Positions 4,197 through 35,713 of a stretch of DNA of 36,036 nt are shown here, one piece after another; within the stretch, counting starts at the first letter, position 1; the number at the start of each line of letters is the position of its first letter. This stretch comes from a virus: positions 1-36,036 of the IMG/VR virus record IMGVR_UViG_3300037502_003221; one strand, 5' to 3'. A model generated the notes under the pieces. It ran no database searches, was not told the origin of the DNA, and saw only the letters and a list, made by a program, of their open reading frames with translations. The position numbers and the translations under genes are program-made.

Positions 4197-7100
4197 ATGG
4201 CTAGTAATTCATTCAAGGTTAAGAACTCGCTTGTTCTTACACCAAAAGATTTGTCCACGCTGGTTAGCCCAGAAGCTGGAGATCTTGCATGTGATATTAA
4301 TGATAGTAACAAGATTAAAAGATATGACGCAACTGCAGCTGCTTGGGTTGAAGTTGGTTCTGGTGGGAGTGGAGTTGGTGGAGTAGATATCCTATTCGTT
4401 CAGGATTTTGAATCAGCAGGTCTTTCTTCTTTCACACAAACAGGCCTTTCTCTTTCTCAAACTGACCCTCTTAAAGGTAAAGTATCTGCTCTTCTCACAC
4501 ACCAAGCTGCAGTAAACCAATCTTTCAAACAAGTTATTTCGGTTGATCGTAAGTTTCGCGGACAGGCAATGACTCTTGGACTTGATTGTAAGTCTTCTGC
4601 GTCACAAGGTAATGTTGTAGTTAATATTTATGATGAAACTAATGCTGCTAATATTGTAGCATCTTCTCAACTACAACTAGCAAATGATGTGAACGGAGCT
4701 AAAACTTCTGTAGCATTTGTAATTCCAGAAACATGCGCTAGCCTTTCTTATACAATTACAGCTCTTCCACAAGCAGGTTCCCCAACTACTCGTATTGATG
4801 ATATTATTTGTCAGCTAGCACAATCACAAGTTATTCAAAGTGGTCTTGTTGCTACAGGTGATAGCTATCTTACCGCAGCAGGAAACGCTGGACAAGCAAT
4901 TACTGCTGACGTAACTAATATTCCATTTACTACAATTTCTACTGTTGGAACTGATATTGTTTCTAACGGATCTCAAATTACAGTAGCAACTTCGGGACTT
5001 TATAGCTTTTCTGGGAGTGTGTTTTTTACAACATCAACAAGCAGAGCCATTCAATTATATGTAAATGATACGCTTTTTAGAACTATTTCTGATTTTGTTC
5101 TAAGCTTTGCACAGCTAAAATTTGACGCTCCTAGCGTTTATTTGAATGCTGGAGATGTAGTGTCTTTTAGATCAAATGTTAACGGCGGTACATTATCAAA
5201 TAGCACAACTTCTCACTGGCTTACAGTAACTCGCGAAGGCTCTCTCAAGCAAGTTTCTGTTAATTCTAATCAAAAAATAACTATTCCAACTCACGAGCTT
5301 CGTATCACTGGTTCCAGCTCTAGAGGAACTGGTGATGGTGGAACTAGAGTTAAGTTTGACACCTTACAATCTCTTCGTGGAGATGCCTTTACTATAACAA
5401 ACGATGCCACAGGTACATCTGTTATAATGAAAAAAGCAGGTAGACTTTCTGCAAATTTTTCTCTTGTCTCTAGTGCAACGTTTGCTCAATTGTATGTTGC
5501 GGGATTACCTGTTGCTATTGATGCTACTGGAACTACAGGTGGGGGGGCTGCTTGGACAGGTGATGTTAAAATAGGAGATACTGTATATGTAATAGCAGGT
5601 GCAGCACCAACCTCTAACGTGGCAAATGGTTTATTCCTATCATTCCAAGAACAAGACATCCAAGTGTCTGTTTCCAACACACTTCCCCAGTTTTCTGAGA
5701 GTGATCTTGTTGTAAGAGCTGGAGGAAACTCTGGGCAAGCCATTACCGCAGCAGTTACAAATATTCCGTTTACCACCATTTACGATTCAACTGGTGGACA
5801 ATGGAATGGCTCGCAATTTACAGTGGCAGAAGACGGTACGTATAGCATCACGGCAATGGCTATTTTTACTACTACAGCTGCAAGGTCATTAGCTATTTTT
5901 GTTGATGGAGCAGAATATAAGCGTATTGCACAAACGTCTACTTCCGATTCATACACTCAAGGTAGCTCCACTTTATACCTTACAAGAGGTCAGGTAGTAT
6001 CTATTAGAGCTATTGGAAACGGAGGAACTCTAAATTCAAGTCTTGGCTCACCTTATCACTACATCGACATCACTAAAGTCGGTAAGCCTAACGTAACTGG
6101 CGTTAACGTAACTCCATTTGTTAACGTGCCGCAGCCAGACTCTCAAAATATGGAAATTTTAGCAAGTGGAACTTATGCAGCAGCAACTATTGCCGCAGCA
6201 TTAACTAGATCATCTGGATCTACAAGTTTAATAAGCTATAACTCCTCTACGGGTATCTACACTACTCTTAAATCAATTAATCTTAGCGCATCATTTTCTT
6301 TATCAGCAAGTGCAGCCGCAAGTGTTACTCCGGTAATTGTGGTTAATGGAGTTGATGTTGCCGTTGACGTTTCTCCTGCCGTTGCAAATAACTGGGGATC
6401 TGCCGCTTACGTTGGAACTATCTCAGCTGGATCAACGTTTTCCTTTAGAAACGCAAGTAATACTGGAAATGCTTTAAAAATATTGGTGTTGGCAACAGCT
6501 CTTTCCGACCAAATTCTCACAGCTACAGAAACCTTTTCCACAGACACAGCTTCTCTCACTTACGCAGGTTCTGGCACTTACACGCTTTCTACGCTTGCTA
6601 ACGCTCCTGTTGGTACTTATATTACATTCACTTACGCCGCTAACACAAACACTAGGACACAAACTACAACTCGTCCTACACAAACTGACGCGGACATGAA
6701 TGCAAATGGTATGTTACTTTACACAAGAGCATATAACGCAGCTAGTACAGCAGCTCAGCCAGCGGCAATTGCTATCCAGATCGGCAAGGGAATGAAGGGT
6801 AAGAGCTTGGATTTGTATAAGAGTGCCGGGAAAGTCACTTCTGGGGAATTAGACTGGTCTAGATATACTACAGATACTGTTGAAGAAGGTTGTAGATATA
6901 AGGATTATAATGAATCTACTGGAGTTTTATTAATAGACGCTGGTGTTAGAGGATCGTCTGTTACAAGTGCTTCTTTTTCTTTTAACGATATTACTGCACA
7001 AACATCCGGCTATCTCGTAATCAACGCGTCTAAAAATCCGGCATTGGCAGGCATTGGCTTGAATAGAGTTGCTGCTAGAGTTGTGCAGAGTAGTGGACAG

Positions 7101-7493
7101 AGTATTCCTAATGGAGTTGACACCGCTGTTGTGTTTGATTCAACAAAAGTTTTTGATACTCACGGAGCATTTAATACTTCAACAGGAGTATTCACCGCAC
7201 CAGAAGCTGGATATTACTCCATAGGCTCTGGTCTTATGTCTGCGTCTGTTGCTTGGACTGCCGGTGCGTTATTTCAAGTTTTTTATAAGAAAAATGGAGT
7301 AGGATCTACTTATAATAGATTTGTTATTCAAGCATCAGTTACTCAATTTATACAAGCAACTGGTTCTGATTTGGTATATTTAGCAAAAGGCGACACTATA
7401 CAATTTTTTGTTTACCAAACAAGAGGATCAGCAACAAGCTTACACACAGATCCGACATTTAACTACGCATTTGTATCAAAAGTATCAGTATAA
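4197..7493 (+). CDS. Giant tail fibre with repeated C1q/TNF-like jelly-roll domains
   Basis: 1098 residues; start set by a strong AAGGAAGGAG (4182-4191). The N-terminal 50 residues ('SPEAGDLACDINDSNKIKRYD...W-EV') are a common phage fibre anchor, followed by a Gly/Ser linker (SGGSGVGG). Residues about 62-205 look like a carbohydrate-binding jelly roll (FVQDFESAG ... TRIDDIICQL). Two related domains follow at about 215-350 and 500-640; both contain 'GQAITA-VTNIPFTTI', a 'SGLYSFSG'/'DGTYSITA' strand and 'YLNAGDVVSFR'/'YLTRGQVVSIR', the layout of C1q/TNF-like folds. A third, diverged copy closes the protein (about 960-1098; 'APEAGYYSIGSG', 'YLAKGDTIQFFV'). This should be a trimeric receptor-binding fibre. 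Fold names are pattern-based. Confidence 0.85.
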   Translation: MASNSFKVKNSLVLTPKDLSTLVSPEAGDLACDINDSNKIKRYDATAAAWVEVGSGGSGVGGVDILFVQDFESAGLSSFTQTGLSLSQTDPLKGKVSALLTHQAAVNQSFKQVISVDRKFRGQAMTLGLDCKSSASQGNVVVNIYDETNAANIVASSQLQLANDVNGAKTSVAFVIPETCASLSYTITALPQAGSPTTRIDDIICQLAQSQVIQSGLVATGDSYLTAAGNAGQAITADVTNIPFTTISTVGTDIVSNGSQITVATSGLYSFSGSVFFTTSTSRAIQLYVNDTLFRTISDFVLSFAQLKFDAPSVYLNAGDVVSFRSNVNGGTLSNSTTSHWLTVTREGSLKQVSVNSNQKITIPTHELRITGSSSRGTGDGGTRVKFDTLQSLRGDAFTITNDATGTSVIMKKAGRLSANFSLVSSATFAQLYVAGLPVAIDATGTTGGGAAWTGDVKIGDTVYVIAGAAPTSNVANGLFLSFQEQDIQVSVSNTLPQFSESDLVVRAGGNSGQAITAAVTNIPFTTIYDSTGGQWNGSQFTVAEDGTYSITAMAIFTTTAARSLAIFVDGAEYKRIAQTSTSDSYTQGSSTLYLTRGQVVSIRAIGNGGTLNSSLGSPYHYIDITKVGKPNVTGVNVTPFVNVPQPDSQNMEILASGTYAAATIAAALTRSSGSTSLISYNSSTGIYTTLKSINLSASFSLSASAAASVTPVIVVNGVDVAVDVSPAVANNWGSAAYVGTISAGSTFSFRNASNTGNALKILVLATALSDQILTATETFSTDTASLTYAGSGTYTLSTLANAPVGTYITFTYAANTNTRTQTTTRPTQTDADMNANGMLLYTRAYNAASTAAQPAAIAIQIGKGMKGKSLDLYKSAGKVTSGELDWSRYTTDTVEEGCRYKDYNESTGVLLIDAGVRGSSVTSASFSFNDITAQTSGYLVINASKNPALAGIGLNRVAARVVQSSGQSIPNGVDTAVVFDSTKVFDTHGAFNTSTGVFTAPEAGYYSIGSGLMSASVAWTAGALFQVFYKKNGVGSTYNRFVIQASVTQFIQATGSDLVYLAKGDTIQFFVYQTRGSATSLHTDPTFNYAFVSKVSV

Positions 7494-33219: not shown

Positions 33220-33489
33220 ATGTCAGACCAACTTAAAAAAATAGAAGAAAAACTAGATAAAGTTGAAGAGAAAATTTCCAGCATTGACGTAACCCTTGCC
33301 AAGCAAGCTAAAGACCTAGAACACCATATCTACAGGACGGATCTTGCAGAATCAAATATTGAACTTTTAAGAGCAGAAATGCAGCCAGTTAAAAAGCACG
33401 TAGCTTTAATGGATGCTAGTTTAAAAGTCGTTGGAGCTATCTCTTCTGCGGCTATGTTTATTTTAGGCGTAGCTAAGTTATTCTTCTAA
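33220..33489 (+). CDS. Small coiled-coil protein with C-terminal membrane segment (holin-like)
   Basis: 89 residues, SD GGGGAAAG. Residues 5-65 are a charged heptad-rich helix ('LKKIEEKLDKVEEKISSIDVTLAKQAKDLEHHIYRTDLAE'). Residues about 69-88 are one hydrophobic segment (VVGAISSAAMFILGVAKLFF) ending at the C terminus. The layout is that of XhlA-like and related phage lysis-cassette proteins, which sit on the inner membrane and help holins. No endolysin is visible in this window, so the lysis role is tentative. Its stop TAA overlaps the stop of the convergent minus-strand gene. Confidence 0.6.
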   Translation: MSDQLKKIEEKLDKVEEKISSIDVTLAKQAKDLEHHIYRTDLAESNIELLRAEMQPVKKHVALMDASLKVVGAISSAAMFILGVAKLFF

Positions 33490-34037
33490 CTGCCAACAAT
33501 CCAATGCCTAGTATTCGCCTTGTACTTAGGAATATCGCCCTGTTCCAATAAAGCCTTATCCAGAAATCTAATTCTATACTGTGGATATAACATTAAATAC
33601 CCATCTTTGGTTTGAATGGCGTGTAACTGTTTCCAATGAGTTGGGTGCCTTGAATATCCCTCGCCAACAAAATCTATTGTAAATAGGTAAATACCTAATT
33701 TTGCTTGTATCATGTTGGGACGAACTTCACATTCAGCATACCTGATAGTTTCCATGCAAAATACATCAATATCATCACTTATACAGTCCCACATTTGAGC
33801 ATCAGCAAGCTCTAATTTGCCATTAAAAGCGTCTTCTCGAAATGTGATAGCGTGTGCAGGTAATCCTGTAAAAAGCGCACCTGTGTCCAATAAGACGCTA
33901 AATTGAAGGGCTTGGTTTGATCTAGAGCGGACAGATATTAAGTGTCCTCCAGTTTTGCCTTCTTTACTAGAATCGCAGTCAAAAAGAAAATAATCCCAGA
34001 CATACACCCTAATTGGAGGTAAATTTGCGTTATTCAT
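33486..34037 (-). CDS. Conserved phage protein of unknown function
   Basis: 183 residues; ATG overlaps the upstream gene's stop (ATGA at 34037-34034). The text 'VWDYFLFDCDSSKEGKTGGHLISVRSRSNQALQFSVLLDTGALFTGLPAHAIT' is one I recognise from uncharacterised proteins of many phages (YFLFDC-SSK, GGHLISVRS, VLLDTG, LP-HA). It is followed by 'LQLWDC'-like 'AQMWDCISDDIDV' and a 'GIYLFTIDFVGEG' strand. No membrane segment, no known catalytic motif; the LLDTG string recalls retropepsin-like aspartic proteases (DTG), but one match is not enough. Last gene of the minus-strand operon. Confidence 0.65.
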   Translation of the reverse strand: MNNANLPPIRVYVWDYFLFDCDSSKEGKTGGHLISVRSRSNQALQFSVLLDTGALFTGLPAHAITFREDAFNGKLELADAQMWDCISDDIDVFCMETIRYAECEVRPNMIQAKLGIYLFTIDFVGEGYSRHPTHWKQLHAIQTKDGYLMLYPQYRIRFLDKALLEQGDIPKYKANTRHWIVGS

Positions 34038-34294
34038 TTGCTAAACCTATGGTTATGTAAGTCTCTGCAGTATTCGGAGCAGTACACTACTGCCCTTCCC
34101 TTTTTAGTCTCATATATAAAATGTTCAGTTCCAATGTAGCTTTTGCAAAAAAATAGCTGTCCAGTTTCTTTATTATTAATGGTAACTTTGAAAGGTTTTT
34201 CAATTTTAATAGTACAACGCTCACAATAGAGCCTATCATCAGAGGAAGCGTATACTTTTTGATTGGCAAGCTTTCCTTCTAAGTTATAGCTCAT
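34034..34294 (-). CDS. Cys/His-rich zinc-binding protein (TRASH/MYM-like)
   Basis: 86 residues, overlapping both neighbours by four bases (ATGA). Cys24-x2-Cys27, a lone Cys50, then Cys72-x3-Cys76-x3-His80-x-His82. The C-terminal 'VVYCSEYCRDLHNHRF' has the 'yCs-eCr--h' shape of TRASH/MYM-type treble clefs, which bind zinc or other metals. Sitting directly after the cytochrome gene, it might act as a metal-dependent regulator or adaptor; that is inference. No signal peptide, so it should stay in the cytoplasm. Confidence 0.5.
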   Translation of the reverse strand: MSYNLEGKLANQKVYASSDDRLYCERCTIKIEKPFKVTINNKETGQLFFCKSYIGTEHFIYETKKGRAVVYCSEYCRDLHNHRFSK

Positions 34295-34626
34295 TTCTTT
34301 TCCTTTTTTTTGAAACTGCTTATGTATAAGAATAGATTACGCAGCTGTAACTCAGACAACGGTATTCGTGGCATTACTCTTGTTTTTCTTTTAGGTTTAT
34401 AGCCTGTTGGATACTGTCTTTTTTGAGTTTTTAGCGTAATAAGTTCTAAACTAGATCCTGCAATGTCTGGACCTATGGCTCCAGGTTTTGTGGGATTTGT
34501 GTTGTGACAGGAGGTACACCTAGAAGTATAAATAGCTTTTCCCTCGGTGTTGGCTTTAGATAGCGTAGATACTAGAAGTCCAAGTATTAGTATGTTAGCT
34601 ATTCTCAGGTTCCCAAGCATTATCAT
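34291..34626 (-). CDS. Exported monohaem c-type cytochrome
   Basis: 111 residues. The first 25 form a signal peptide: Arg8, hydrophobic ANILILGLLVST (10-21) and a probable cut after SKA (residue 25). The mature part shows class I cytochrome c: 'GKAIYTSRC37TSC40H41NTN' with the CXXCH haem site, then 'GAIGPDIAGSS', a basic loop and 'RVM85PRIPLSELQLRNLFLYISSF', where Met85-Pro is the expected distal ligand and the last helix packs on the haem. All key residues are present, so it should be functional after haem attachment in the periplasm by the host. The start overlaps the previous gene by 32 bases; Met3 is an alternative. The stop overlaps the next ATG. Such a gene is rare in phages and suggests manipulation of host electron transport. 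Confidence 0.85.
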   Translation of the reverse strand: MIMLGNLRIANILILGLLVSTLSKANTEGKAIYTSRCTSCHNTNPTKPGAIGPDIAGSSLELITLKTQKRQYPTGYKPKRKTRVMPRIPLSELQLRNLFLYISSFKKKEKK

Positions 34627-34786
34627 ACGTATTTAGAGCCTCTAGTTTTGAAATGGGAGGAAGCATCCCAGCCTCTTCCAGTTCTAATAGTATATCAGAA
34701 ACTTCTTCTATTGAAAATACATAATCTTGTGGGAGTTTGCTATTAATCAAGTTCCCAAGAAGTTCTATAGCTTGGCTTCTTTTCAT
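34595..34786 (-). CDS. Small phage protein with LEEAGMLPP motif
   Basis: 63 residues; ATG immediately follows the clpX stop (TAAATG). Mostly helical ('SQAIELLGNLINSKL', 'IEEVSDILLELEEAGMLPPIS'), ending 'DNAWEPENS'. The LEEAGMLPP followed by a W-EPE end is a recurring pattern in short phage proteins of unknown role. It overlaps the cytochrome start by 32 bases. Confidence 0.55.
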   Translation of the reverse strand: MKRSQAIELLGNLINSKLPQDYVFSIEEVSDILLELEEAGMLPPISKLEALNTYDNAWEPENS

Positions 34787-35713
34787 TTAATAAATCCACT
34801 TAGGCTTCCCGCTTATCACAACAGAACTGTCAAGAATAAACTGCTTCGGTTTTATAGCTAAGCTTGGGGCTTCAAATTGAGCGTTTAAAAGAGCCTCATC
34901 CAGTACGCTATGTAGTCCTCTAGCTCCAAGACCCTTCTCAATTGCCTTTTGTGCAATAATGTTAATCGCGCTGTCTTCTACCACAAGCTCGATCTTTTCG
35001 CTCAAAAACCACTCTTTAAATGAGTTTAGAATGGAGCCTTTAGAATCTTTAAGTATCTTTCTATAATCGTCAAATTTAAGCTCTTGTAGCTGTGTAATTA
35101 CAGGGAATCTGCCGAGAAACTCTGGAATCATTCCAAAGTCTGTGAGATGTTGAATTGACGTAGATTCTAAACCAACAAAAGCTCCGGAACAAATAAACAT
35201 GATATCTTTTGTGTTCATTTTTCTATCATACTCACCATTTTGTGAATACTTAGAAATGTATGGTACGTCGCTTCCTTCTAGAAGTTTCAAAAGAGACTGC
35301 TGAACTCCTAGTCCATTTACATCAGGACCGGAATTTCCAGAGTCTTTTTTACGAAGTTTATCGATTTCGTCAATATAGATAATTGACTTACTGGCTTTCT
35401 TTTCATCTCCCTCACAAATGCCTATGAGGTCGGTAATAAGCTCTTCTACGCTTCTACCTTGATATCCAGACGAGGTGAATTGAGTAGCGTCGCTTGTTAA
35501 AAAGTTTACCCCAAGTATTTTAGCTAGGATTGATACTAGGTAAGTTTTTCCACATCCCGTAGGTCCAATGAGCAACACGTTTGTTTTTTTAATATTAAAC
35601 CCAGCCATTCTTTTAAAATGGTTATATGCCGCTACAGACATAGCTCGCTTAGTTTTTTCATGACCAATAACGTACAGGTCAAGCTCAGCCTTTATGACTT
35701 CTGGAGTTTTCAT
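34787..35713 (-). CDS. clpX: ClpX-like AAA+ unfoldase lacking ClpP-docking loop and zinc domain
   Basis: 308 residues; E. coli ClpX has 424. It begins at the AAA+ module ('TPEVIKAELDLYVIGHEKTKRAMSVAAYNHFKR'), so the N-terminal zinc-binding domain is absent. Kept: Walker A GPTGCGKT (50-57), Walker B IIYIDEID (111-118), sensor 1 ICSGAF, Arg finger GR202 in 'IPEFLGRFPV', and sensor 2 GARG (263-266). Changed: pore loop 1 is GYQG (83-86) instead of GYVG, and the RKH loop is not recognisable ('ISKYSQNGEYDRK'). Between GLES (181) and GMIPEF (194) only nine residues remain where ClpX carries the long IGF loop that docks ClpP. It should hydrolyse ATP and unfold or remodel proteins without delivering them to ClpP. 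ATGA overlap with the upstream gene. Confidence 0.85.
   Translation of the reverse strand: MKTPEVIKAELDLYVIGHEKTKRAMSVAAYNHFKRMAGFNIKKTNVLLIGPTGCGKTYLVSILAKILGVNFLTSDATQFTSSGYQGRSVEELITDLIGICEGDEKKASKSIIYIDEIDKLRKKDSGNSGPDVNGLGVQQSLLKLLEGSDVPYISKYSQNGEYDRKMNTKDIMFICSGAFVGLESTSIQHLTDFGMIPEFLGRFPVITQLQELKFDDYRKILKDSKGSILNSFKEWFLSEKIELVVEDSAINIIAQKAIEKGLGARGLHSVLDEALLNAQFEAPSLAIKPKQFILDSSVVISGKPKWIY

Follow-up and report, generated by a model that had tools for sequence, protein, structure and literature searches.

A predicted exported class I cytochrome c of a DUF989-linked subfamily, carried by phages and related to Bdellovibrionota cytochromes

The window analysed here is a 36,036-nucleotide stretch of viral DNA (IMG/VR record IMGVR_UViG_3300037502_003221), in which positions 34291-34626 are predicted to encode an intact, exported, mono-haem class I cytochrome c with haem attached at a CxxCH motif (Table 1). 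The first-pass annotation gave this gene without a strand; it lies on the minus strand, and the plus-strand frame across the same positions is interrupted by many stops. Its claim that a phage contig encodes a complete and exported cytochrome c of class I stands: the open reading frame (ORF) occupies exactly those coordinates, begins with a predicted signal peptide and exceeds the cut-off of Pfam family PF00034 (Cytochrom_C; 28.8 bits versus 21.3, E-value 2.2e-7 over the record). The haem motif and Met85-Pro were also found at the residues it had named, and the CTSCH is the sole CxxCH in the 36-kb window when six frames are checked. Membership in class I thus rests on the PF00034 score, the N-terminal CxxCH (C37, C40 and H41), the C-terminal Met85 and the fold. 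The structure prediction that had been proposed alongside the profile search gave a cytochrome c fold (AlphaFold2, pLDDT 86.6), whose top structural matches belong, with few exceptions, to cytochrome c domains of class I; the match to the cytochrome cc domain of a mycobacterial bcc complex has a VIA Z of 9.1 over 76 residues, a moderate value.

The N-terminus of the protein is hydrophobic from about residue 9 and ends in a small-X-Ala site (S23-K-A25), after which we infer cleavage; A25 is invariant in three phage homologues, namely the window cytochrome and its two nearest relatives. A lipobox was sought in this N-terminus and is absent. The full sequence, with a slash at the predicted cleavage site, is MIMLGNLRIANILILGLLVSTLSKA/NTEGKAIYTSRCTSCHNTNPTKPGAIGPDIAGSSLELITLKTQKRQYPTGYKPKRKTRVMPRIPLSELQLRNLFLYISSFKKKEKK. 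A search of PHROGs with the protein returned no family match, and none of the NCBIfam respiratory families reached its cut-off; SoxX, c550, c551 and QcrC were rejected as assignments since all scored far below theirs.

Table 1. Coordinates of the cytochrome c gene, its predicted protein features and the neighbouring genes in the window
Feature	Coordinates	Strand	Remarks
Cytochrome c gene	34291..34626	minus	111 aa, ATG start, stop included; PF00034 above gathering cut-off
Predicted cleavable signal peptide, residues 1-25	34552..34626	minus	Hydrophobic segment and S-K-A site, without lipobox
CTSCH haem-attachment motif, residues 37-41	34504..34518	minus	CxxCH invariant in 12 and in 9 homologues
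YPTGYKPKR subfamily signature, residues 72-80	34387..34413	minus	YPxxYKPKR invariant in phage and first-aligned cellular homologues
Met85, predicted distal haem ligand (Pro86 next)	34372..34374	minus	Invariant in both homologue alignments
63-aa phage ORF upstream of cytochrome	34595..34786	minus	Related phages have homologues (56% in L008, for example)
86-aa Cys-rich phage ORF downstream of cytochrome	34034..34294	minus	Homologues of 40-52% in related phages
183-aa phage protein, PHROG 3704	33486..34037	minus	Database labels 'ferredoxin' or PurM; without ferredoxin-type cysteine clusters
ClpX-like AAA+ ATPase	34787..35713	minus	First large gene of minus-strand module

As the first-pass annotation had noted, phage-type genes overlap the cytochrome gene on both sides, by 32 nucleotides with the upstream 63-aa ORF and by 4 nucleotides with the downstream 86-aa ORF, both of which have homologues in related phages. 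The plus strand up to 33489 carries mostly virion genes, and the minus-strand block (36036 to 33486) opens with small phage ORFs and the ClpX-like ATPase. In three related phages of approximately 80 kb (G007, G020 and G016, all linear records for which completeness is not given), the same strand block runs on into RNR, helicase and DNA polymerase genes, placing the cytochrome at the end of a replication/host-takeover block and not among the virion genes. The equivalent site in G007 has ClpX, orf86, orf63 and PHROG-3704 genes without a cytochrome. The PHROG 3704 neighbour was considered as a ferredoxin redox partner and dismissed because ferredoxin-type cysteine clusters are missing from it and database entries for its homologues read PurM or hypothetical; the ferredoxin label looks like a misannotation that has been propagated.

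Searching IMG/VR and INPHARED directly with the window protein matched no relative, and neither did INPHARED searches with two other members of the phage cytochrome family. The first close phage relatives were found by way of the neighbouring genes, and others followed from a wider profile. The subfamily is now found on at least nine phage contigs, the window and eight further IMG/VR contigs. Two are close relatives of the window phage: the L010 copy (64% identity to the window cytochrome) adjoins the same PHROG-3704 gene, and the L015 copy (63%) occupies a different genomic place. A third, G021/L106, is a distant member of the window phage's virus family (terminase 40%, portal 49%, capsid 45%) with a cytochrome of 38% identity. 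The wider profile added L225, L226, L227, L228 and L229. Among these, L225 is a 119-kb, myovirus-like contig on which visual inspection of the sequence, and not a profile, picked out a tail-sheath-like gene, the L227 terminase is 47% identical to that of G021, and the L228 and L229 RNRs are 75% identical to that of G016. A scan of IMG/VR for YPxxYKPKR returned only contigs already found and one more scan added nothing, which suggests that the IMG/VR contigs with this motif have all been found. No previous description of such a stand-alone cytochrome c in a phage turned up in the open-access literature and collections searched.

Conservation of the gene in related phages, which the first-pass annotation had suggested examining, presents two sides. 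All nine phage copies keep the CxxCH, the YPxxYKPKR signature and the axial Met; loss of the haem or Met ligands in related phages, which would have counted against a working carrier, is thus seen in none of them. The L225 copy also keeps a lipobox, unlike the window copy. Most close relatives, on the other hand, lack the gene: no homologue was found in 18 of the 20 related-phage records searched whole, many of which are fragments, and its position shifts between phages. The earlier description of the cytochrome as fixed in the operon therefore does not hold, and the gene is better regarded as variable cargo. It is under purifying selection. Among the three closest copies dN is approximately 0.33 against a dS of 1.6 to 2.1 or saturated, and third codon positions change most and second positions least.

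To find cellular homologues, we scanned approximately 85,000 species genomes. Matches fell in Bdellovibrionales/Bacteriovoracales, SAR324/Lambdaproteobacteria and a few deltaproteobacterial MAGs; a phage-only profile at E <= 1e-10 hit 60 of 291 Bdellovibrionota genomes, 19 of 52 SAR324 genomes and 5 of 247 genomes of another deltaproteobacterial phylum. The cellular homologue is a small cytochrome, usually a lipoprotein, and in most genomes one copy scores far above the rest (G028 and G030 have extra strong or partial matches). Across four phage and eight cellular sequences, CxxCH, GP, SS, YPxxYKPKR and Met85 are invariant; in further cellular copies the YPxxYKPKR signature is slightly degenerate (for example, YTPKR).

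Of 51 cellular loci, 40 have a short Urate_ox_N (DUF989, PF06181) gene as the immediate neighbour of the cytochrome gene, among them all 31 Bdellovibrionota loci examined. Given that the partner is not nearby in the other 11, the pairing is not obligatory outside Bdellovibrionota, and PF06181 is absent from all phage records searched, making the partner a feature of the host gene pair and not of the cytochrome itself. The host partner is a membrane protein of approximately 230 aa with four transmembrane segments; it matches DUF989 in part and has no cytochrome fused to it. Its weak matches to CopD (E-value 0.79) and UPF0093/HemJ (E-value 0.25) are leads only. His19 and His176 are invariant in the short DUF989 protein, and the two-gene module recurs in Bdellovibrionota and part of SAR324 (example loci L109, L112 and L131). 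By its YPxxYKPKR motif, GP/SS signature and tree grouping, the window cytochrome is assigned to this DUF989-linked cytochrome c subfamily.

The comparison with host cytochromes that had been called for was made with two trees. In both, the window, L010 and L015 cytochromes nest with five Bdellovibrionota sequences (support 98/94 and 96/94), so that, on phylogenetic grounds, the window gene is placed as having originated inside a Bdellovibrionota clade. The virion genes point to the same hosts. The only INPHARED match to the window capsid protein is a phage of Silvanigrella aquatica, a member of the Bdellovibrionota, and the same phage gives the best terminase match. The capsid gene occurs in 3 of 369 Bdellovibrionota genomes and in none of 52 SAR324 genomes; two of the three occurrences are in prophages on chromosome-like contigs, which share terminase, portal, capsid and other virion genes with the window phage family. 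Tetranucleotide composition singled out no host. The window phage thus probably infects Bdellovibrionota, the phylum to which predatory bacteria of the Bdellovibrio type belong; the link runs through distant virus relatives and MAGs. These two prophages are L217-L218 (G261 contig 4) and L219-L220 (G657 contig 6); one is decayed, with in-frame stops, and the other is apparently intact and lies beside dnaE and an integrase-like gene. In the window, itself a fragment of an approximately 80-kb phage type, no gene could be recognised as encoding a tail tube or sheath, yet members of the same family are integrated prophages, and the earlier description of a lytic podophage was not borne out.

Our preferred reading, to which we assign a probability of roughly 0.58, is that the gene is an auxiliary metabolic gene (AMG) from a Bdellovibrionota host whose product would act as a phage-supplied electron carrier for the host's DUF989 membrane redox pair. 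As expected of an AMG, it appears host-derived, lies in a genuine phage genome, is recurrent and shows purifying selection. After capture from such a host, the gene would probably be expressed during infection, given its place in the minus-strand replication/host-takeover block. Sec would export the protein and the host cytochrome c maturation (Ccm) system would supply its haem. In the periplasm it would then supplement the host carrier as a further copy without a membrane anchor, shuttling electrons between the DUF989 redox protein and the remainder of the respiratory chain. The likeliest benefit would be relief of a carrier-limited step: with an extra carrier moving electrons, the DUF989 step might no longer limit the infected cell. 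The absence of DUF989 from the phage records fits phages that supply the carrier and not the enzyme. Sustaining electron flow in infection, as the first-pass annotation had supposed, is therefore a reasonable role, although the relatives suggest the short DUF989 protein as partner rather than simply a terminal oxidase.

The cytochrome could instead be a general respiratory shuttle, along the lines of the first-pass suggestion: it would feed a terminal oxidase with electrons taken from bc1 or alternative complex III and so raise ATP output during infection, with no particular tie to DUF989. Respiratory cytochrome c domains among the fold matches, the predicted soluble state of the window copy and the lack of DUF989 in the phages are all consistent with this, but the YPxxYKPKR signature and the trees point to the DUF989-linked cytochrome and not to an oxidase-linked family, and with every NCBIfam respiratory family below its cut-off we consider such a shuttle unlikely. 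The lack of a lipobox in the window copy, when host copies are mostly lipoproteins, suggests that it may act differently from them, conceivably as a decoy or saboteur that shuts the host pathway down, either by draining electrons from the DUF989 module or by blocking its partner. That phages carry the carrier only, never the enzyme, would suit such a role; retention of all haem and ligand residues in nine copies, as a working carrier would require, and of the lipobox in at least one phage copy (L225) make it improbable.

A chance passenger with little function in the phage would explain why the gene is missing from most close relatives and varies in position, yet nine phage contigs with invariant ligands and a strong third-position excess of changes are hard to reconcile with it, and we find it more doubtful still. 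That the homologues are cellular genes might raise suspicion of a contig chimera with host DNA, which the first-pass annotation had named as fatal to its claim. Independent phage contigs from other metagenomes carry homologues between phage genes and at other positions, which makes a chimera very unlikely; with phage genes overlapping the cytochrome on both sides and host neighbours such as DUF989 missing, hardly any weight is left for it.

Supply of a carrier to the host DUF989 pair, the reading preferred here, can be set beside several known systems. Cyanophages encode the photosynthetic electron carriers plastocyanin and ferredoxin, likewise small, soluble and phage-supplied to sustain electron flow; the window protein differs in being of haem c type and in its heterotrophic hosts. 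A close comparison is the host pair in Bdellovibrionota and SAR324, which shares the signature and the haem and Met ligands with the phage copies. Its cytochromes are mostly lipoproteins encoded beside DUF989, whereas the phage copy begins with a signal peptide predicted to be cleaved and comes without DUF989. The urate oxidase PuuD likewise unites a class I cytochrome c and a DUF989 membrane domain, but in one fused protein whose membrane domain is full-length, with eight transmembrane segments, and which is encoded in purine operons (PMC4562309). In the hosts considered here these parts are two separate proteins, of which the membrane one is short, and the phage encodes the cytochrome alone. 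The window protein itself, a single domain of 111 aa without fused DUF989, was rejected as a PuuD. Short DUF989 proteins outside the puuD context and without a fused cytochrome were described with no function assigned (Doniselli 2015; PMC4562309). Among sulfur AMGs, phages favour carriers over enzymes (Kieft 2021; PMC8190135). SoxD, the sulfane dehydrogenase subunit of sulfur oxidisers, is another phage-encoded cytochrome c-type protein, but two viral SoxD proteins lack one or both haem motifs (PMC8190135), while the window protein is a complete single-domain carrier from another pathway.

Among electron carriers encoded by phages, those of photosynthesis and sulfur oxidation are the most familiar; a recurrent, complete, predicted haem c carrier in Bdellovibrionota-linked phages extends the range to heterotrophic, partly predatory hosts with little-studied viruses. 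A further implication is that the hosts have a conserved two-gene module, for a short DUF989 protein and a cytochrome c, which phages evidently find it worthwhile to modify; what this module does thereby becomes a testable question. Given that at least nine phage contigs carry this kind of gene, these viruses seem to tinker with an electron-transfer step of the host that has been little studied. More tentatively, and with the odds somewhat against it, Bdellovibrionota phages may have captured the DUF989-partner cytochrome repeatedly and independently to control that step. The best nine-phage tree requires approximately five label changes and its well-supported branches force at least two; L225, L226 and L227 sit on weakly supported forks, and a single clade of all nine phage copies is not rejected (AU p = 0.144). 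If repeated capture did occur, the DUF989/cytochrome step would be an energy bottleneck in Bdellovibrionota hosts.

Two other genes of these phages were noted in passing. In the virion region of the window, positions 4197-7493 (plus strand) encode a 1098-aa protein with a C-terminal C1q-like domain (PF00386), perhaps a receptor-binding tip. Related phages encode a ClpP/SppA-like protease (PF00574, E-value 7.8e-16) that begins with a signal-peptide-like segment and is apparently an exported Clp-type protease (L187:7546-8334 in G020, L182:13097-13891, L226:6972-7871 and L210:1122-1916); in G020 and G007 it lies fairly near a ClpX-like ATPase.
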